From: Rugosibacter sp.
GTDB lineage: Bacteria; Pseudomonadota; Gammaproteobacteria; Burkholderiales; Rhodocyclaceae
DNA: 9,533 nt
NCBI GenBank assembly: GCA_023257495.1
Contig: JALRCC010000095.1
Span: forward strand, 1 to 9,533
Direction: 5' to 3'
Both the position numbers and the translations under genes were made by a program. Under the pieces are notes generated by a model. It was not told where the DNA came from. It searched no databases and saw nothing but the letters and a program-made list of their open reading frames with translations. Within the stretch, counting starts at the first letter, position 1; each line of letters opens with the position of its first letter. This document shows positions 1 to 9,533 of the stretch, piece by piece.

Positions 1-1268
1 ACGAAGGTATCGTTAAGGTCAGTGGTGAAGTCGGCAGTGGCAAGACCATGCTGTGCCGCGTATTGATGGAGCGCCTGCCTGAAAATGTCACAATCATCTA
101 TCTGGCAAACCCATCACTGGCACGCGAAGACATTCTTTTCGCCATTGCCGATGAACTCCACCTTGCGTTACCAGAAAACTCCAGAACATCTTTCGTTTTG
201 CGCACCTTGCAAGACCACCTGATCACCTCTTTCAGTGAAGGTCGCCAGGTAGTCGTGCTCATCGACGAAGCTCACGCAATGCCAGCGGAAACGCTGGAAG
301 AAATTCGCCTGTTATCCAACCTCGAAACCAATCGTCATAAGCTGCTTCAGCTCGTGCTCTTTGGCCAGCCTGAGCTGGACGATATTTTGGCTCGCCCCGA
401 TATGCGCCAGCTCAAAGAGCGCATTACCCACAACTTCAGGCTGGAACCCCTGGTGCGCCATGATATCGCCAGCTATCTTGATTTTCGCATGCGTGCCGCA
501 GGCTATCGCGGCCCCAGTGTCTTCACACCCGCAGCAGTAAAGATGATCGCACGTAGCTCGCACGGTCTCACTCGCCGCATCAACATACTCGCTGACAAAG
601 CCTTGCTTGCGGCTTATGCCAAAGGCAGCCATCAAATTGGCACGAAAGAGGCCCAGGCAGCCATTCGCGATAGCGAGTTCAGCCAAGCCACCTATGCCGA
701 CAAAAAAACATCCCGCAACTTAACTCGCCTACTCATTTTTGGTGGCACAGCCATTGCGGTCGTCGTAGCGTTGATTACGGCCACATGGCTGATCGCCACC
801 ACTCAACGCCCCAGCCGGCTTGCAACCGAAACTCGCTTACCTGCGCTATCTACACCACAACCTTCTTCACCACAACCTGCCAACAAAGCCATGTCCGCCG
901 TGTCAAGCCCTGGGGTCCCCTCACCGACTCCTCACAAGCCAGTGGCCTATCCATTGACCCAGGAGCGCCTGACCGCTGGCCAATACTGGCTTGAAAAAGC
1001 GCCGGACAATCACTGGTTTATACAAATCTGGGCAACTGATGCAACCCAGCAGGAACAAATCGAAAACTTTTTAAACACCGCTGCACCGCAAGCTGATTTC
1101 AACAATCTGCGCGTCTATTTTTCATCCCTCAGCGGTAAGCCGCGTTATGGCATCATCTATGGCGACTACGCAACACGCGCCGCAGCTGTGACTGGCATCA
1201 AACAGCTACCGGATGCACTGAAAAAGACCAAACCCTATGCCCGTCAGGTAAGTCGCCTGCGGCAATGA
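1..1268 (+). CDS. mshM: MshM/ExeA-type AAA ATPase with C-terminal SPOR domain (5' truncated)
   Basis: The reading frame is open from base 3, so the gene starts before the window; the ATG at 48 lies just after the P-loop and cannot be the true start. Counting the codon at 3-5 as residue 1, Walker A is GEVGSGKT (8-15) and Walker B is VVVLIDEAH (D88, E89). QLKERITHNFRLEPL and SHGLTRRINILADKALLAAY match the conserved C-terminal part of ExeA/GspA/MshM ATPases. A hydrophobic segment at about 243-266 is a single membrane helix. A Pro/Ser/Thr-rich linker follows, then a SPOR-like domain (about 337-421: HWFIQIWATD, then PRYGIIYGDYATRAAAV). From family knowledge, these ATPases help secretins assemble or pass through peptidoglycan, and SPOR domains bind glycan strands lacking stem peptides. 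The cytoplasmic ATPase, helix, periplasmic SPOR topology is inferred. It lies directly upstream of the secretin gene, fitting that role. The family is clear; the MSHA assignment rests on context. Confidence 0.88.
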   Translation, partial: EGIVKVSGEVGSGKTMLCRVLMERLPENVTIIYLANPSLAREDILFAIADELHLALPENSRTSFVLRTLQDHLITSFSEGRQVVVLIDEAHAMPAETLEEIRLLSNLETNRHKLLQLVLFGQPELDDILARPDMRQLKERITHNFRLEPLVRHDIASYLDFRMRAAGYRGPSVFTPAAVKMIARSSHGLTRRINILADKALLAAYAKGSHQIGTKEAQAAIRDSEFSQATYADKKTSRNLTRLLIFGGTAIAVVVALITATWLIATTQRPSRLATETRLPALSTPQPSSPQPANKAMSAVSSPGVPSPTPHKPVAYPLTQERLTAGQYWLEKAPDNHWFIQIWATDATQQEQIENFLNTAAPQADFNNLRVYFSSLSGKPRYGIIYGDYATRAAAVTGIKQLPDALKKTKPYARQVSRLRQ

Positions 1269-1301
1269 AAAAGCACCAAATATCCCTCTTATTAACCATT
1301 A

Positions 1302-1347
1302 AAATCATTAAGTTAAATAAAAAATATCATGTATCATACGAATATTC
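1302..1347 (+). promoter_or_regulatory. Possible promoter region upstream of mshL
   Basis: The 120-base gap between mshM and mshL is strikingly AT-rich compared with the flanking genes. It contains two adjacent -10-like hexamers, TATCAT at 1325-1330 and 1332-1337, and a weak -35-like TTAAGT at 1308-1313 (18 bases before the second hexamer). A perfect 8-bp palindrome GAATATTC sits at 1340-1347. CATTAAAAT and CATTAAGTT form an imperfect direct repeat just upstream. The -35 match is poor, and no terminator with a U-tract is seen after mshM. A promoter is inferred from position and composition only. Confidence 0.25.
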
Positions 1348-1378
1348 AAACATTACTGCTTGATTGAATAGCTACTTT

Positions 1379-1391
1379 GGAGAACCCATTG
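1379..1391 (+). promoter_or_regulatory. Ribosome binding site that sets the mshL start (TTG)
   Basis: GGAGA at 1379-1383 is a good Shine-Dalgarno sequence placed five bases before TTG at 1389-1391. The other in-frame TTG at 1377 overlaps this site and has no ribosome binding site of its own. Starting at 1389 gives a compact lipoprotein signal peptide (basic start, hydrophobic core, then LAAC), which supports the choice. Confidence 0.6.
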
Positions 1392-3239
1392 CGTCCACAC
1401 CTCAAACTAGCGCTTTCTACTACAGGCTTCGCCAGCCTTGTCTTTTTGGCCGCCTGTAGCACCATTCAGCCCCCGGCAGTTTCCACAACGCATCTCCACG
1501 CTGAAAACATTCCATCTGTTGCTGCACGTGACATCCCGACGCCTGTTGCAGCGGCCATCACGCTACCCCGCCCAACGGTCTCCGCAAAAACAGAAACTTA
1601 CTCGGTATCTGTGCGCAACATTCCAGTACAGGATTTACTCTTTGCCCTGTCGCGTGACGCAAAAATCAATGTCGATGTACACCCGGGTATCAATGGCGTC
1701 GTCACGATCAATGCCATAGACCAAACCTTGCAGCAAATTCTCACCCGTATCGCCAAACAGGTTGATATGCGCTGGGAAATCGACGGACCAAATCTGATTG
1801 TCATGCCTGATTCGCCTTTTCTGCATACTTACAAAGTCGATTACGTCAATATGCTGCGCGATGTCAGCAGCTCCGTTTCCATCAATACACAGATTGCTTC
1901 AACCAGCTCCGGAGTCAGTGCAAACGCCTCTAGCGGAGGGGGTAACAACTCAACCACCACGGTCACCAGCAAAGCACAAAACAATTTCTGAGTCTCTGTT
2001 GAGAAAAACATCAAAGACATCCTGCGCGAAACAGACAAAATTCTGCCTGAAGGCTCCAGCGAAACAGTCATCGAACACGATAACCAACAGGAAACCACAG
2101 GCACGGGCGCTTCATCAGCTGGGGCAAATAAAGGGGGCAAAGGAAATACACCGTCGCTCGCAGGAAGCCCCAACCCTGCCAGCTTGCAAGAACAAGGCAC
2201 CACCATCGTCAAGCGGACGACTTTTCGTGAAGCAGCGTCTGTCATCACCAACCCCGAAGCAGGGGTGATTGTTGTGCGCGCCACCGCTCGCCAGCACGAA
2301 AAAGTACAGGAATACATCGATCAAGTCACCCGCAATGCCGGGCGACAGGTCATTATCGAAGCCACTATTGCTGAAGTGACGCTGAATAACAATTACAAAC
2401 AGGGCATCAACTGGCAAAGTCTGCGGTCGTTGCGATCTCCTGGAACGGCGGGCTTCTCATTGGCTCAATCTCCGACAGGGCTAACCAACGGCGCTGTGCC
2501 TGACCCCTTTGCCGCGCCGGGTGCTTCATTTTTACTCAACTATGTGGCACCGGGTCTAGGCATTTCATCCACGCTGGCTTTGCTGGAAACCTTTGGCAAC
2601 GTTAAAGTATTGTCGAGCCCAAAAATCAGTGTGCTGAATAATCAAACCGCCATGTTGAAAGTCGTCGATAACGTGGTCTATTTTGAGGTCAAATCAGACT
2701 CCACAATCGGTCAGGTGAATACGCAGAAATCATTCACCACAACCGCTAAATCGATCGCCGTTGGCCTGGTCATGAATGTCACACCACAAATTAGTGAAGC
2801 AAACATGATCACCCTGAATGTGCGTCCTACCATCTCAAGAGTCACCGGCTTCAAAACCGATCCGAACCCGGATATTCCATCTGCCATACCCAATCGCGTG
2901 CCTGAAATACAAACTCGCGAAATGGAATCCGTCTTGCGTCTGGCCAATGGCGAAATTGCAGTCATGGGCGGATTGATGGAAGACAAAATAAATTACAACA
3001 CGGACGCAGTTCCCGGATTGGCCAACTTACCAGGCATTGGCAACATCTTCCGCAATCGTGACGATACCAACACCAAGACCGAGTTGGTCATTTTCCTAAA
3101 ACCAACCGTCATCCGTGATGCCAGCTTGAACGGCGACTATCGTGAATTTCGGCAACAACTCCCCGATCAGGATTTTTTCAAAAACAACCCTGGCCCTGAT
3201 CAAACAATGACCGAAAGTTCAAGGACGCGCGCGCCATGA
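1389..3239 (+). pseudogene. mshL: MshL-like outer-membrane secretin, interrupted by one in-frame TGA
   Basis: The gene encodes the ring-forming outer-membrane channel through which the pilus would exit. From TTG 1389 a lipoprotein signal ends in LAAC with the lipid-accepting Cys at residue 23; Ser at +2 fits outer-membrane sorting. Residues about 70-140 resemble the STN/N0 domain (VRNIPVQDLLFALSRDAKI). A Ser/Gly/Asn-rich stretch (about 171-200) ends at TGA 1989-1991 (position 201). The same frame continues without a gap into VSVEKNIKDILRE, a second Gly/Ser linker, a secretin N-domain (TTFREAASVITNPEAGVIVV) and the C-terminal secretin domain with VLSSPKISVLNN, VPEIQTREMES and VPGLANLPGIGNIFR. 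Full length would be 616 positions, normal for MshL. The first in-frame start-like codon after the stop that gives a long product is TTG 2184; that product lacks a signal peptide, N0 and any clear ribosome binding site. It may be a real null allele, a read-through gene or a base error. The family call is firm; its functional state is unknown. Confidence 0.85.
1989..1991 (+). other. In-frame TGA stop inside mshL
   Basis: The codon order is AAC AAT TTC TGA GTC TCT GTT GAG AAA. Frame is kept on both sides, so this is a substitution and not an indel. TGG to TGA is the simplest origin, giving NNF-W-VSVEKN; I recall an aromatic, often Trp, at this place in MshL relatives, but cannot align here. No homopolymer run is present at the site. 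TGA also ends mshM, mshL, mshN and mshG in this window, so it acts as a stop in this genome. Confidence 0.9.
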
Positions 3240-4579
3240 GTCTGCTCATGGATGCCCTCAAGAAAGCGGAGTTAGCCAAGCGTGAAGGTGGCCTCAGTAG
3301 CAACCCGCAAGCAACAGACAACTCCTCTGCCAGTCTGACACTGGAACCACTTTCTGCATCCACGCCAGCCGCAGCATCACATACCAGCACAAGCGCCCAG
3401 GACAACCAATCCATCGACGACTGGCCGCATGTGCCATCGCGCCTTGAATCACTCGATGATGCATTTCTGGCAGAAATGGAAACCACTGTACGGCGCACAG
3501 CGCCAGCGTCGACTGGATCCGCATCAGCTTTTTCAAAGCCACGTACTGAGCCTTCCGCAACGCAATCTGCGTTCAAACCCGAGCCCTCCGCCGCAAAAAA
3601 TTTATTCACGGCCAAACAACCTGCCACAGCGGTACGTAATAAAAACTTTGCGCTCTTACTGGGTGGCTTGACTGCGCTGGCAGTAATCGCCATCGGGATT
3701 TATTTTTGGTGGCAGCTACAGCCCCACACACCGCCACCCGTCGCCATTCCATTACATGAAGTTCAGGTAACAAATTCGCCGACGCGTTCCACTGCCACCG
3801 TCCCACCAGCGCCGACTTTTCCTGCATCAGTACCATTGACTGCCAACCTGGCAACAGCGAACGATGATGAGGCCCCCATCGCAAAACCTCAAAGTGCTCT
3901 GCGGGCAAATCATCAATCACCGCAAAACTCCAGGCACAGTGCAGGGGATGTAACAAATATGCCGGATGCAACCGGCACTACTGATCCTATCCATCTGACC
4001 AAGGCACCTCAGCAGGTGAATCCCTCCCTGCTGCATGGCTTTGACGCATTCAATCGCGGTGACCTTGCCAGCGCGCATGCCGAATACACGCGCGCCCTGC
4101 AGTCTGACCCGCGCAATACCGATGCCCTGCACGGTCTGGCGGCCATTGCCCAAAAACAGGGGCATTGGGATCAGGCAGCCTGGGGATATCAAAAAATACT
4201 CGAAGCCAACCCGCAAGACGCCGTAGCGCTTGCTGCACTGATGAATATCCGCAGCCAAGCGGATCCAGCAACGGCCGAGAGTCGCCTGAAAACGCTGGCT
4301 GTTGCCCAGCCAGAACTAGCTGCCCCCGCTTTCTCCCTAGGCAACCTGTACGCCCGGCAAAACCGCTGGAGCGAAGCACAGCAAGCCTACTTTCAAGCCT
4401 ACAGCGCAGACCCTGATAATCCCGACATCCTCTATAACCTCGCGATCAGCCTTGAGCATATTCGCCAAAACAAATTAGCGGCCCAATACTACGGCCAAGC
4501 GATAGCCGCAGCAAAAAACCACCCGGCTAATTTTGACAGTGCCCAAGCGGCTGCCCGCATACAGGCATTGCAGCCCTGA
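3236..4579 (+). CDS. mshN: MshN-like membrane-anchored TPR protein
   Basis: This is a 447-residue protein. It begins MSLLMDALKKAELAKREGG, a charged amphipathic N-terminus that I recall from TPR proteins of betaproteobacterial pilus loci. A low-complexity Ser/Ala/Pro region follows. One membrane helix lies at about 138-160 (FALLLGGLTALAVIAIGIYFWW), preceded by basic residues, so the N-terminus is probably cytoplasmic. A second Pro/Thr-rich linker leads to TPR-like repeats from about 262 to the end (GDLASAHAEYTRALQSDPRN, QGHWDQAAWGYQKILEANPQ, NRWSEAQQAYFQAYSADPDN). The periplasmic TPRs probably bind partner proteins of the secretin or alignment complex; this is inferred. ATG overlaps the mshL stop (ATGA), with AAGGA at 3221-3225, so it is translationally coupled to mshL. 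If ribosomes leave at the TGA in mshL, expression here may fall. The TPR call is firm; the MshN name rests on gene order. Confidence 0.75.
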   Translation: MSLLMDALKKAELAKREGGLSSNPQATDNSSASLTLEPLSASTPAAASHTSTSAQDNQSIDDWPHVPSRLESLDDAFLAEMETTVRRTAPASTGSASAFSKPRTEPSATQSAFKPEPSAAKNLFTAKQPATAVRNKNFALLLGGLTALAVIAIGIYFWWQLQPHTPPPVAIPLHEVQVTNSPTRSTATVPPAPTFPASVPLTANLATANDDEAPIAKPQSALRANHQSPQNSRHSAGDVTNMPDATGTTDPIHLTKAPQQVNPSLLHGFDAFNRGDLASAHAEYTRALQSDPRNTDALHGLAAIAQKQGHWDQAAWGYQKILEANPQDAVALAALMNIRSQADPATAESRLKTLAVAQPELAAPAFSLGNLYARQNRWSEAQQAYFQAYSADPDNPDILYNLAISLEHIRQNKLAAQYYGQAIAAAKNHPANFDSAQAAARIQALQP

Positions 4580-4603
4580 TTACTTGTTCGGTATAAGTCA
4601 TAT

Positions 4604-6310
4604 ATGAGTCAGCCCACTCTCCAGCGCCGACGTGTCGGCCAGATACTCATCGAACATGGCGTAATCAGCGAGGATCAGTTGCGGATTGCCTTGCTGGAAC
4701 AGATGAAGTCCGACCAGCCTGTCGGACGGCTCCTGGTCTCTCTGGGATTTGTTTCGGAAGCCACGTTGCGCGAGGCGCTGAGCGAATCACTAGGCTATGA
4801 ATCGGTTGATCTATCCAACACCATTGTCGATCCGGAAGCCATTCGGCTCATTCCACGTGATCTCGCCAAACGACACCTGCTTTTAGGTTTGAGTTATTCA
4901 CCGACGACACACCATCTGAAAATCGCCATTGCCGACCCCAATAATATTGTCGCCATAGACAAACTACGCGCCTTAATTCACCACGAAATCCATATCGAAG
5001 CTCTACTGGCAGGTGAATCAGAAATCAGCCAGGCCATTGATCAGTATTACAGCCATGAATTGTCAATTGACGGCATCCTGAACGAGATTGAAACCGGCGA
5101 AATTGACTATCGCAGTATCACCTCCACCCTCGACGAATATAGTCAACCGGTCGTGCGGCTAGTCGATGCGTTACTGACTGATTCCGTCAAGCGCAATGCA
5201 TCTGACGTTCACTTCGAACCCGAGGCTAATTTTTTACGTATCCGTTATCGCATCGATGGCTTGTTGCGTCAGATTCGTGCCTTACATAAATCCTATTGGG
5301 CCGCGATGGCAGTACGTATCAAAGTCATGAGTGGCATGAATATCGCCGAGACTCGCGCCCCGCAAGATGGGCGAATTTCACTCAATATCAGTGGCGACAC
5401 GGTTGACTTTCGGGTATCAGCCCAACCCACGATCCACGGCGAGAATATCGTGCTACGCATTCTCGACCGCAAAAAGGGCATTGTTCCGCTGGATAAGCTC
5501 GGCTTGGACGATCACCAGATCAACTTGCTCAAGCTGATGGTCGCCCGACCAGAAGGCATCATTCTCATGACCGGCCCCACCGGTAGCGGAAAAACCACAA
5601 CGCTATATTCGGTGCTCAACCATATCAATCTCGAGGGGATCAATATCATGACCCTGGAAGATCCAGTAGAGTACCCCATGGCAATGATTCGCCAAACATC
5701 CGTTGCCGAGTCTGCCAAACTGGATTTTGCCAACGGCATTCGCTCCATGATGCGGCAAGACCCTGACGTCATCCTGGTGGGTGAAATTCGCGATGCGGAT
5801 ACCGCCGAAATGGCATTTCGCGCAGCCATGACGGGTCACCAGGTTTATTCCACACTACACACCAACTCTGCCTTGGGTGCCATTCCGCGCCTGCTGGATA
5901 TTGGCGTGTTACCTGACATCATGGCGGGCAACATCATTGGCATGATCGCTCAGCGTTTGGTGCGGCGTTTATGTGTCCATTGTCGCAAACCCTATCCAGC
6001 AGAATCTCATGAAAAGAAACTCCTGGGTATCAATGTGTCGCAGGCTGCGCCGATGTTATATCGTGCCGTTGGTTGTTCCAAATGCGACAATCAGGGTTAT
6101 CGCGGCCGTATGGCAATCATGGAGTTATTACGTCTGGATAGTGAGCTGGATGATCTCATCAGCCGTCGTACCAGCTTGCATGTCATTCGCAGCGCAGCAA
6201 TTGCCAAAGGATTTCAACCCTTGGCAGCTGATGGTCTCCGTCGTGTACTGGATGGCTCCACCTCTATCGAAGAAATCGGTCGAGTGGTTGATCTGACTGA
6301 CCGCATGTAA
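4604..6310 (+). CDS. mshE: MshE-type pilus assembly ATPase (GspE/PilB family) with MshEN domain
   Basis: This hexameric cytoplasmic motor powers pilin polymerisation. Length (568 residues) is normal. Residues 10-33 and 39-62 form two tandem repeats of the MshEN type: RVGQILIEHGVISEDQLRIALLEQ in outline, then PVGRLLVSLGFVSEATL. In V. cholerae MshE such repeats bind cyclic di-GMP; here R10, G12, L15, G19, L26, L30 and Q33 are kept, while the second repeat has P39 and V40 and lacks the final Gln (S62). The ATPase core has Walker A GPTGSGKTT (324-332), the Asp box TLEDPVEYP, Walker B DPDVILVGEIRD (386-397) and the His box TGHQVYSTLHTN (410-421). The zinc-binding tetracysteine is complete (C457, C460, C491, C494). 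It starts 24 bases after mshN, in the same frame, with only a weak TAAG as ribosome binding site. All catalytic motifs are present, so it should be active. Confidence 0.95.
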   Translation: MSQPTLQRRRVGQILIEHGVISEDQLRIALLEQMKSDQPVGRLLVSLGFVSEATLREALSESLGYESVDLSNTIVDPEAIRLIPRDLAKRHLLLGLSYSPTTHHLKIAIADPNNIVAIDKLRALIHHEIHIEALLAGESEISQAIDQYYSHELSIDGILNEIETGEIDYRSITSTLDEYSQPVVRLVDALLTDSVKRNASDVHFEPEANFLRIRYRIDGLLRQIRALHKSYWAAMAVRIKVMSGMNIAETRAPQDGRISLNISGDTVDFRVSAQPTIHGENIVLRILDRKKGIVPLDKLGLDDHQINLLKLMVARPEGIILMTGPTGSGKTTTLYSVLNHINLEGINIMTLEDPVEYPMAMIRQTSVAESAKLDFANGIRSMMRQDPDVILVGEIRDADTAEMAFRAAMTGHQVYSTLHTNSALGAIPRLLDIGVLPDIMAGNIIGMIAQRLVRRLCVHCRKPYPAESHEKKLLGINVSQAAPMLYRAVGCSKCDNQGYRGRMAIMELLRLDSELDDLISRRTSLHVIRSAAIAKGFQPLAADGLRRVLDGSTSIEEIGRVVDLTDRM

Positions 6311-6344
6311 ATCTGTCCGCTAAAGCCCTCTTCCACAAACAACC

Positions 6345-7547
6345 ATGGCGCTGTACTCATACAAGGCAATTGATGCAAGTGGCAAGATGGTCTTTGGTAA
6401 TCTCGAGGCCATCAATCTGATTGATCTCGAAATGCGATTAAAACGCATTGGTCTTGATTTCATCAATGGCGATGTGATCAAGCAACGCAGCAGTTTGAAT
6501 CGAACACGTATCACCCGCCTGGAACTCATCACCTTCTGCTTTCACCTGGAGCAACTTAGCCGTGCCGGTGTTCCCCTGATAGATGGCCTGGCCGACTTGC
6601 GTGATAGCCTGGAAAATCCTCGTTTTCGAGAAATCATTGCAGGAATGATAGAAAGCATTGAAGGTGGGGAAACGCTCTCGCAAGCCATGCATAAACACCC
6701 GCACACGTTTGATGAAGTCATGGTGAGCCTGATTCGTGCCGGTGAAGAAACTGGTTCCGTACCACAAGTACTGAACAATCTGCTCGAATCACTCAAATGG
6801 CAAGATGAGCTGGCAGCGCACACCAAAAAACTCATCATGTACCCCGCCTTTCTTGGCACTGTGGTCGTGGCAGTCGTGCTGTTCATGATGATTTATCTGG
6901 TCCCCAAGATGGCGGGCTTCATTCGCAATATGGGTCAAGCACTTCCGCTACAGACCAAAATACTTATCGCCACCTCTGATTTCTTTGTCAATTACTGGTA
7001 CGTCGTCATTGGTTTTCCGATCTTGCTTGTGGTGAGCCTCACCTTGCTGGTCAAACAAAACCCCGCAGCACGCTACCGCTTTGATGACATCAAGCTGCGT
7101 CTGCCATGGATAGGCGTCATACTCAAAAAAATCATTCTTTCGCGGTTTGCTTCTGTTTTCGCCATGATGTATGCCTCGGGCATTACCATTCTGGATTCGA
7201 TCAAAACCACAGAAGACATCGTCGGCAACCTTGTCATCAAAGAAGGATTGACGCGAGTCGGCAATTTGATTTCCGAAGGGAAAAATGTCACCGCCGCTTT
7301 CCAGCAAGTGGATCTTTTTCCGCCGCTGGTTTTGCGCATGCTGCGTGTGGGCGAAAATACCGGTGAACTCGATACAGCGTTAACCAACGTAAGCTATTTT
7401 TACAATCGCGACGTGCGTGAATCCATTGAAAAAGTACAGGCCATGATCGAACCTGTCATGACGATCATCATCGGCCTGATTCTTGGATGGATCATGCTCG
7501 CTGTGCTTGGGCCAATTTACGACATCATCACCAAAATGAAAACCTGA
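6345..7547 (+). CDS. mshG: MshG-type inner-membrane platform protein (GspF/PilC family)
   Basis: A 400-residue polytopic protein that couples the ATPase to pilin extraction from the inner membrane. The N-terminus MALYSYKAIDASGKMVFG is typical of the family and fixes the start, although no Shine-Dalgarno sequence is seen before it. Two T2SSF domains are visible: the first (about 55-190) holds FCFHLEQLSRAGVPLIDGL, GGETLSQAM and LIRAGEETGSVPQVL; the second repeats the pattern with FASVFAMMYASGITILDSI, EGKNVTAAFQQ and MLRVGENTGELDTAL. Membrane helices lie at about 168-188, 214-236 and 370-392. The C-terminal helix IGLILGWIMLAVLGPIYDI is characteristic. It follows mshE by 34 bases and is probably co-transcribed with it. 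Nothing is missing or disrupted. Confidence 0.95.
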   Translation: MALYSYKAIDASGKMVFGNLEAINLIDLEMRLKRIGLDFINGDVIKQRSSLNRTRITRLELITFCFHLEQLSRAGVPLIDGLADLRDSLENPRFREIIAGMIESIEGGETLSQAMHKHPHTFDEVMVSLIRAGEETGSVPQVLNNLLESLKWQDELAAHTKKLIMYPAFLGTVVVAVVLFMMIYLVPKMAGFIRNMGQALPLQTKILIATSDFFVNYWYVVIGFPILLVVSLTLLVKQNPAARYRFDDIKLRLPWIGVILKKIILSRFASVFAMMYASGITILDSIKTTEDIVGNLVIKEGLTRVGNLISEGKNVTAAFQQVDLFPPLVLRMLRVGENTGELDTALTNVSYFYNRDVRESIEKVQAMIEPVMTIIIGLILGWIMLAVLGPIYDIITKMKT

Positions 7548-7558
7548 GTGAACAATCG

Positions 7559-9184
7559 ATGGCAAGCAAACGCATTCTTCTGTTTAATGGGTCGCGACTC
7601 ACCGCTTATTTCTGGCGTAATGGCCAGTTACATAGTGAAGGCGAATTTCATCCTCATGTCGATGGTACCGATGGTACCAGTGGTACCAGTGGACTCACTG
7701 CCTTCGCAAACTATCTCACCCAGAACCACACCAGTCATTTTTACTGGCTAGCAGACATTAGCGAAGAAAGCTTTCTGCTCGAGACAATTCCCCCGGTTAA
7801 AGGGCGCGATCGCAATGCGCTCATTGCCCGTCGCTTAAAGCAGAATTTTTATAGCACTCCCTTCGCCATCGCCTTGTCGCTCGGTCGATCCAGTGAAGGG
7901 CGCCGCGATGAAAAAGTACTCCTGGCCGCACTTAATCGGCCAGAAGCCCTCAATACCTGGCTGGAAGTCATCCGCGAGAATGGCATCATCCTCGCAGGTA
8001 TCTACTCTGTTCCCTTGATTCTTGCCGAATACGCCCCACGCTGGTTGATTGATACGCGACCTACTCTGCTGATCAACCAAACTGCGAGTGGCATACACCA
8101 GAGTTTTTTTGACCAGGGCAAACTCCAATTCTCGCGTCTCACTTCAATAACGCCACCAATTAACACAACAGCCCTCCCTAAAGGTCCTGATAACGAAGTT
8201 ATCGCTCAAGCCATCACCAGGGAATCAGTCAAAACGGTTCAGTATCTCATCAGTCAACGGCAACTGACCCCCAACACACCCGTGCGGGTCGCTGTGCTTA
8301 TCTCGGTAGAACAAAAACTTGCGGTACAAAGTCACTGTCAGAGCCTGGATCTGCTGCAATATGATTTCATTGATCTGGAAACCCTTGCCCAGCAAGAAAA
8401 ACTCAAGCCACCACCCGCCAGGCTCACTGCCGACCAGTTATTGATGCATTGCCTGGTAAAAAAGCCGCCCGCACTACAATTTGCCCCGCCCTCAGAACGT
8501 CACTTTTATCAGCTTGCACAGATACGCCTCGCGCTCACTGCGATTGCCATCATCACACTAGTCAGTGGCTTGTTGTTCGCTATCAAAACTGCCCTGGATA
8601 CCTCACGTCTGGAACAAGCGACGAGCAGGACACAATTACAAACAGCGATGACGACACAGCGTTATAACGCACTGCTGGATAGTCTCCCGAAAACCAGCAT
8701 ATCACCAGAAAATCTGCGTGCTGTGATGACCCGTTATGAAACGCTACAAAAACGCACTGCGGATCCAAGCCCTCTGCTTGCACACTTGAGCCAGGCACTG
8801 GATGCCACGCCACAAGTTGAACTGGTTACCCTCGACTGGAAAATAGAAAATACCTTGAGCAACGCACTAAAAGCCCTGGGACCCACGCTGGATGGTACTG
8901 CTGATATCAATCCTGCTAACGGCGGCCCCTGGACAACCCTAAAAATTCAGGCGCGACTACCGCTTGGGTTAGCGGCAGATATGCGTCAACAAAAAACACT
9001 CATTGATACTTTTATCCAGCGCTTGCAACAGCCTCGAATCAAAGTGCAGTTATTGTCCATGCCTTTTGACATCGAATCCGGCAAACCGCTCAAAAGCATG
9101 CAAGAAACCAGCAACGGTGTCAGTGAAACAATGCCGATGTTTTCACTGATCATTGCTCAACCGTTGTACCCAAGAGAACAATAA
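7559..9184 (+). CDS. PilM-PilN fusion (GspL/MshI-like) inner-membrane alignment protein
   Basis: A 541-residue protein with the plan cytoplasmic actin-like domain (about 1-310), one membrane helix (about 322-345, LALTAIAIITLVSGLLFAI), a short coiled coil (about 350-375) and a periplasmic PilN-like domain to the end. Marks of the PilM fold are LLFNGSRLTAYFWRNGQL at the start and TLLINQTASG (169-178) followed by a strand ending in GKLQFSR. The usual Asp residues of the phosphate loops are Asn (N10, N175), so nucleotide binding is probably weak or lost, as in GspL. In Vibrio these parts are, as I recall, separate proteins MshI and MshI2; here they are one chain. The ATG at 7559 is chosen because it follows mshG by 11 bases, has GAGTGA (7546-7551) before it and starts directly on the fold; a longer frame from 7487 would overlap mshG. 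Domain calls rest on pattern and topology, not alignment. Confidence 0.72.
   Translation: MASKRILLFNGSRLTAYFWRNGQLHSEGEFHPHVDGTDGTSGTSGLTAFANYLTQNHTSHFYWLADISEESFLLETIPPVKGRDRNALIARRLKQNFYSTPFAIALSLGRSSEGRRDEKVLLAALNRPEALNTWLEVIRENGIILAGIYSVPLILAEYAPRWLIDTRPTLLINQTASGIHQSFFDQGKLQFSRLTSITPPINTTALPKGPDNEVIAQAITRESVKTVQYLISQRQLTPNTPVRVAVLISVEQKLAVQSHCQSLDLLQYDFIDLETLAQQEKLKPPPARLTADQLLMHCLVKKPPALQFAPPSERHFYQLAQIRLALTAIAIITLVSGLLFAIKTALDTSRLEQATSRTQLQTAMTTQRYNALLDSLPKTSISPENLRAVMTRYETLQKRTADPSPLLAHLSQALDATPQVELVTLDWKIENTLSNALKALGPTLDGTADINPANGGPWTTLKIQARLPLGLAADMRQQKTLIDTFIQRLQQPRIKVQLLSMPFDIESGKPLKSMQETSNGVSETMPMFSLIIAQPLYPREQ
7661..7693 (+). repeat. 9-bp tandem repeat in the PilM-PilN fusion gene
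   Basis: Units are GATGGTACC (7661-7669), GATGGTACC (7670-7678), AGTGGTACC (7679-7687) and a partial AGTGGA (7688-7693). Each unit carries the palindrome GGTACC and encodes DGT or SGT, giving DGTDGTSGTSG at residues 35-45. Because the unit is three codons, gain or loss of copies would change loop length without shifting frame. Confidence 0.85.
9121..9148 (+). other. Inverted repeat (potential hairpin) near the end of the PilM-PilN fusion gene
   Basis: CAGTGAAACA (9121-9130) pairs with TGTTTTCACTG (9138-9148), with T9140 bulged and a seven-base loop ATGCCGA. It lies inside coding sequence 36 bases before the next start codon and has no U-tract after it, so it is not a standard terminator. It could affect expression of the next gene, but this is speculative. 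Confidence 0.35.
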
Positions 9185-9533
9185 TGACTTTCTCCAGCCA
9201 GGATTTCAAAAGAATACAATGGGCCTTGGTTCTGCTCATCAGTTGCCTGCTGCTTACCGGTGCCACCGTGTGGGGCGTACTGTTCCGACAAAAAGCCACG
9301 ATGCAAACCCATAAAAATACGCTGGCCGCAGAAAAAGAAATGATTGCCAACCTCACGCGCGCGCGCAATGAAGAGCAAGAACTACGCGACAAAATCAACC
9401 GCTATGAAATTCTGAAACAGCGCGGCATAGTAGGTGCTGAACAACGTCTGGATTGGATTGAACTCATCAACCACATCAAAACGACGTGGCGCATACCCAA
9501 GCTGGATTATGACTTTTCACCACAAAGAAAAAT
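9184..9533 (+). CDS. PilO/MshJ/GspM-like inner-membrane protein (3' truncated)
   Basis: The gene begins at an ATG that overlaps the previous stop (TAATG), with AAGAG at 9172-9176 as ribosome binding site. It stays open to the window edge, giving 116 residues. A short cytoplasmic start (MTFSSQDFKRIQ) leads to one membrane helix at about 13-34 (WALVLLISCLLLTGATVWGVLF). A charged heptad-like region follows (about 40-78, KNTLAAEKEMIANLTRARNE), then LDWIELINHIKTTWRIPKLDY, the start of a periplasmic domain. This plan and the place right after a PilN-type domain match PilO, MshJ or GspM, which pair with PilN/GspL coiled coils to align the motor with the secretin. Sequence identity among these families is low and the end is missing, so the exact name is left open. 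Confidence 0.65.
   Translation, partial: MTFSSQDFKRIQWALVLLISCLLLTGATVWGVLFRQKATMQTHKNTLAAEKEMIANLTRARNEEQELRDKINRYEILKQRGIVGAEQRLDWIELINHIKTTWRIPKLDYDFSPQRK

Follow-up and report, generated by a model that had tools for sequence, protein, structure and literature searches.

A candidate recent nonsense allele of mshL, the MSHA pilus secretin gene, in a Rugosibacter-like betaproteobacterium

A single in-frame TGA divides the mshL gene of a Rugosibacter MSHA pilus locus, which raises the question of whether the gene carries a real nonsense allele, a stop that is suppressed during translation, or a base error in the assembly. The original prediction, made from the DNA letters, had listed these three options, and the list still stands. 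The DNA analyzed comprises positions 1 to 9,533 of contig JALRCC010000095.1 (assembly GCA_023257495.1), and this whole stretch of 9,533 nucleotides is referred to below as the window. Rugosibacter is an environmental betaproteobacterium.

Gene order of the locus

The window is part of an MSHA pilus gene cluster in which all genes lie on the + strand. Its first gene (3 to 1268), cut at the 5' end by the window, codes for an AAA ATPase with a match to AAA_22 and a match to TIGR03015 below the cut-off; we take it to be mshM from its position and from general knowledge of msh loci. It is followed by mshL (1389 to 3239) and by a gene coding for a TPR protein (3236 to 4579), presumably mshN by the same reasoning, the ATG of which overlaps the mshL stop as ATGA. 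The extension ATPase gene mshE (4604 to 6310) includes T2SSE and MshEN domains, and the platform protein gene mshG (6345 to 7547) a T2SSF domain. The next gene (7559 to 9184) has no family match and is presumed to be mshI from its position only, and the mshJ-like gene after it is so called by position only. The mechanically defined open reading frame of the mshI-like gene runs 61 bases into mshG (window 7487 to 7559); the ATG at 7559, located after the mshG stop, is a likelier start. The nearest of the fetched loci, L029, from a Rugosibacter metagenome-assembled genome, shows 80% DNA identity across positions 1 to 9531 and 95% protein identity for the downstream piece of mshL. A search of a plasmid collection with the window gave no match.

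The interrupted mshL reading frame

The frame that extends from the TTG at 1389 to the TGA at 3237-3239 has a sole internal stop, the TGA at 1989-1991, which is codon 201 of 616. The upstream piece (1389 to 1988, 200 codons) includes a signal sequence ending in LAAC, which we take to be a lipobox motif, an N-terminal secretin domain and a Ser/Gly/Asn-rich linker. The downstream piece (1992 to 3239, 415 codons plus the TGA stop) includes the secretin pore domain (PF00263) and has no signal sequence of its own as judged by eye. Both pieces and the stop position add up to 616, the size of two near-identical intact proteins, P0121 and P0122, bearing out the claim that the halves share one frame with no gap or duplication and together have a normal size. 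There is no ATG start within window positions 1377 to 1391; a GGAG is found at 1379-1382, upstream of the TTG, and this TTG matches the first residue of P0121 and P0122. The other seven frames checked in the window are free of internal stops, in agreement with what had been said of the neighboring genes.

The downstream piece alone reaches 267.7 bits with the NCBIfam MshL model TIGR02519 (curated cut-off, 250.2 bits), and the HofQ/YscC N-domain matches of the upstream piece are far under the cut-off. The TIGR02519 match and the msh neighbors, a MshEN ATPase and a T2SSF platform protein, are those of an MshL locus; the unbroken frame from the signal sequence through the pore domain is what is missing, being interrupted at codon 201. 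Compared with L029, omega was 0.077 for the upstream piece, 0.037 for the downstream piece, and between 0.057 and 0.188 for the remaining six genes. Given these mshL values and the TIGR02519 score, the split mshL is a genuine gene and no chance open reading frame. The original prediction had described the DNA downstream of the stop as being under selection; this holds for the divergence from L029, which spans time before the stop arose, so that omega cannot date the stop and is silent on the period since.

The Pfam match to Secretin_N_2 spans residues 147-214 of the intact P0122, and the PF00263 match residues 399-576. The stop had been placed at the border of a Ser/Gly linker; it does come directly after the Ser/Gly/Asn-rich stretch, and it falls inside the Secretin_N_2 match. 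The predicted structure of P0122, obtained with 25 homologues, was poor (mean pLDDT 47.4) and hints at a helix at residues 200-217.

The codon-201 column in related loci and proteins

Related stretches were compared as loci, using the best 80 of 165 found; 79 cover codon 201, and L060 falls short. At this column 77 of the 79 have Trp, as had been guessed for the TGA position, and two have Met. The Met codons (ATG) are those of the Gallionella loci L039 and L041, in the contexts NNL-M-QSL and NDL-M-QSL, respectively. By its letters, the TGA is one transition away from the Trp codon of the relatives. The Trp is also invariant in an alignment of 26 hand-picked full-length homologues and in all 118 covering proteins of the 120 listed in a second protein search. 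The first protein search, the length limit of which selects short or broken proteins, found 175 and listed 120; the site is covered by 76 of these and not by 44, and the residues are Trp in 70, Met in two, and A, Q, K or R in the other four, whose contexts look frameshifted or misaligned. No stop was seen at this column in the 79 covering loci or in the 194 covering listed proteins (118 + 76), bearing in mind that protein lists by nature cannot show many broken copies. This comparison with relatives, which had been proposed as a check, disfavors a conserved recoding.

A secretin match of some kind was present in 57 of 61 genomes (that of L029 and its relatives). An internal stop occurs in one of the listed matches, at a place with 28% identity, and the genome in question also has a 57%-identity secretin match without a stop.

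The 120 listed short homologues (of the 175) showed no excess of ends that would point to a recurrent stop at the site. Thirty-nine of them end three or fewer residues from the end of the alignment, where a stop and a contig edge are not distinguishable; two of these, P0029 and P0069, have their ends immediately ahead of the Trp column, and columns 319 and 341 likewise have two each. Seven short MshL proteins (P0001, P0004, P0007, P0013, P0017, P0072 and P0103) look frameshifted in or near the linker before the Trp, some of them on contigs longer than 100 kb. The Ser/Gly/Asn-rich linker is possibly prone to insertions and deletions, and since this search favored short proteins, the frameshifted appearance may reflect selection or sequencing error.

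Near-identical alleles: nonsense allele or base error

Besides the start and codon 201, the window MshL differs from the intact P0121 by three residues and from P0122, which is encoded on a contig of 29,554 bp, by six. In an alignment with 17 homologues (P0121 to P0136 and L029) the stop is the only private residue of the window protein, and the frame has no further stop; on this basis we see no sign of decay of the kind expected in an old pseudogene. In the same alignment P0121 has one private residue, P0122 two, and five rows none, so by this count few private residues would be usual at such distances. Taken together, the single stop at a near-invariant Trp column, the intact near-identical alleles and the absence of further private residues lead us to regard the TGA, with somewhat more belief than doubt, as a nonsense allele that is rare and that arose recently in the mshL of a Rugosibacter-like betaproteobacterium.

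The main rival is an error of base calling or of the contig consensus, the mshL of the organism itself being intact. We hold this to be a substantial possibility, if on the doubtful side, because an error fits the same data: a stop that is the single private residue, alleles nearly identical and intact, and a gene otherwise free of decay, the absence of further private changes being expected from an error too. The contig listings bear on both readings. For P0140, a 321-residue fragment called from the broken mshL, the listing gives a single contig, whose 9,533 bp are the length of the window, as an error peculiar to that contig would have it. On the other side, no further sign of error was seen: the window MshE is identical to P0241, listed with five contigs of up to 102,149 bp, all 415 residues of the downstream mshL piece occur within P0121, and the seven other frames checked are open. 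The contrast between five contigs for MshE and one for the MshL fragment suggests that the stop is confined to the contig of the window. This is how we read the contig column of the P0140 and P0241 listings, and other gene callers might begin the fragment at another position; the P0140 cluster has three member sequences, of which the representative alone was seen, and further broken copies may exist.

Read-through and recoding

TGA is more prone to read-through than the other stops in E. coli; the residue inserted there is usually Trp, and a G following the stop increases the rate (PMC11126739). The mshL site is a TGA-G at a Trp column. An E. coli reporter gave UGA read-through of about 12%; in two Pseudomonas species it was 0.08% and 0.04% (PMC9481147). 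Since read-through differs so greatly among species, some full-length MshL is possible. A leaky stop that tRNA-Trp reads often enough for some pilus function is nevertheless improbable. The premature stop shares the context TGAGTCT with the natural mshL stop at 3237, and this context is thus a normal terminator in this operon. In addition, the RNA fold of the 71 bases surrounding the stop is slightly poorer than that of shuffled sequences (z 0.82), and the TGA is shared by none of the 79 loci. Slighter still is the chance that part of the population retains the TGA as a real allele because tRNA-Trp misreading at TGA-G yields a little protein of normal sequence and hence low or cell-to-cell variable MSHA piliation, which might, for instance, balance attachment against the risk from pilus-binding phages.

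A true recoding of UGA, as Trp throughout the genome or as selenocysteine, has next to no probability. The exact coincidence of the stop with the Trp column is what such recoding would produce, but TGA terminates four genes of the window (mshM, mshL, mshN and mshG), which is not the case in a code where UGA is Trp, and the eight frames checked have no further internal TGA. A pattern search for the tRNA-Trp anticodon arm was positive in four of five related genomes and gave no match in the fifth; ARAGORN identified all four as tRNA-Trp with anticodon CCA, and by eye their anticodon stems have five pairs. A tRNA-Trp able to read UGA would be expected to have a UCA anticodon or a 4-bp anticodon stem, and the shorter stem has been linked to the decoding of UGA (PMC13092985). 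As to selenocysteine, the window has no Rfam match at gathering scores, the fold around the stop is no better than that of shuffles, and the 79 loci have Trp or Met, never TGA or Cys, at the column. The absence of the stop from all 79 loci speaks against a conserved programmed read-through. On these grounds we rejected a changed genetic code, selenocysteine insertion and a read-through conserved among the relatives. A secretin assembled from two parts, already thought unlikely in the original prediction, was rejected as well because of the lack of a signal sequence on the downstream piece (by eye) and the location of the stop within the span matched by Secretin_N_2 in P0122.

Predicted consequences of the nonsense allele

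If the TGA is a nonsense allele, translation would stop after 200 residues and leave a lipidated N-domain stub lacking the PF00263 pore domain. The downstream 415 residues would either remain untranslated or, with an internal start such as the GTG at 2274, stay in the cytoplasm because this piece lacks a signal sequence. The MSHA pilus would then have no exit and should not reach the surface. Genes mshL and mshN are probably translationally coupled through the ATGA at 3236-3239, and the mshL stop could therefore be polar: the roughly 1.2 kb of message left untranslated and the loss of coupling may reduce the expression of mshN and later genes, and message stability may suffer too. Ordinary low-level misreading of UGA by tRNA-Trp would yield a little protein with the sequence found in the relatives. 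The genomes of L001 to L004 and L029 include one to three further secretin-like frames each (585-794 residues, 23-35% identity), which we would not expect to replace MshL.

Discussion

Both phage selection and experimental passage are known to give rise to mutations in msh genes. Phage-resistant Vibrio alginolyticus carries mutations in the msh operon, mshL included (PMC9532999), and passaged Shewanella oneidensis acquired mutations in mshL, mshG and mshE (PMC7439477); the main text of the latter report does not contain the term "nonsense mutation". One of these S. oneidensis mutations, MshL-T300P, acts like a deletion (PMC7909257). The Shewanella (MshL-T300P and deletion) and Vibrio mutants have in common with the window an altered mshL in an otherwise retained msh operon. 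They come, however, from experiments with a measured phenotype, whereas the window allele is a nonsense codon known from the sequence of one contig, and the Shewanella L3 change is a missense mutation. In phage-resistant Pseudomonas aeruginosa a type IV pilus secretin, PilQ, likewise carries a nonsense allele (PMC13170266), but this affects another member of the secretin family, at another site and under a known selection.

Knockouts of the pilus machine are already known. The mshL stop has little significance beyond the single case, and we regard it as a genuine but ordinary observation. The case also shows how far a stop of this kind can be assessed without reads, from intact near-identical alleles, the count of private residues and the recurrence of its context at another stop of the operon. 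If real, the allele would be an msh knockout that arose in nature, in a lineage whose relatives have an intact mshL.
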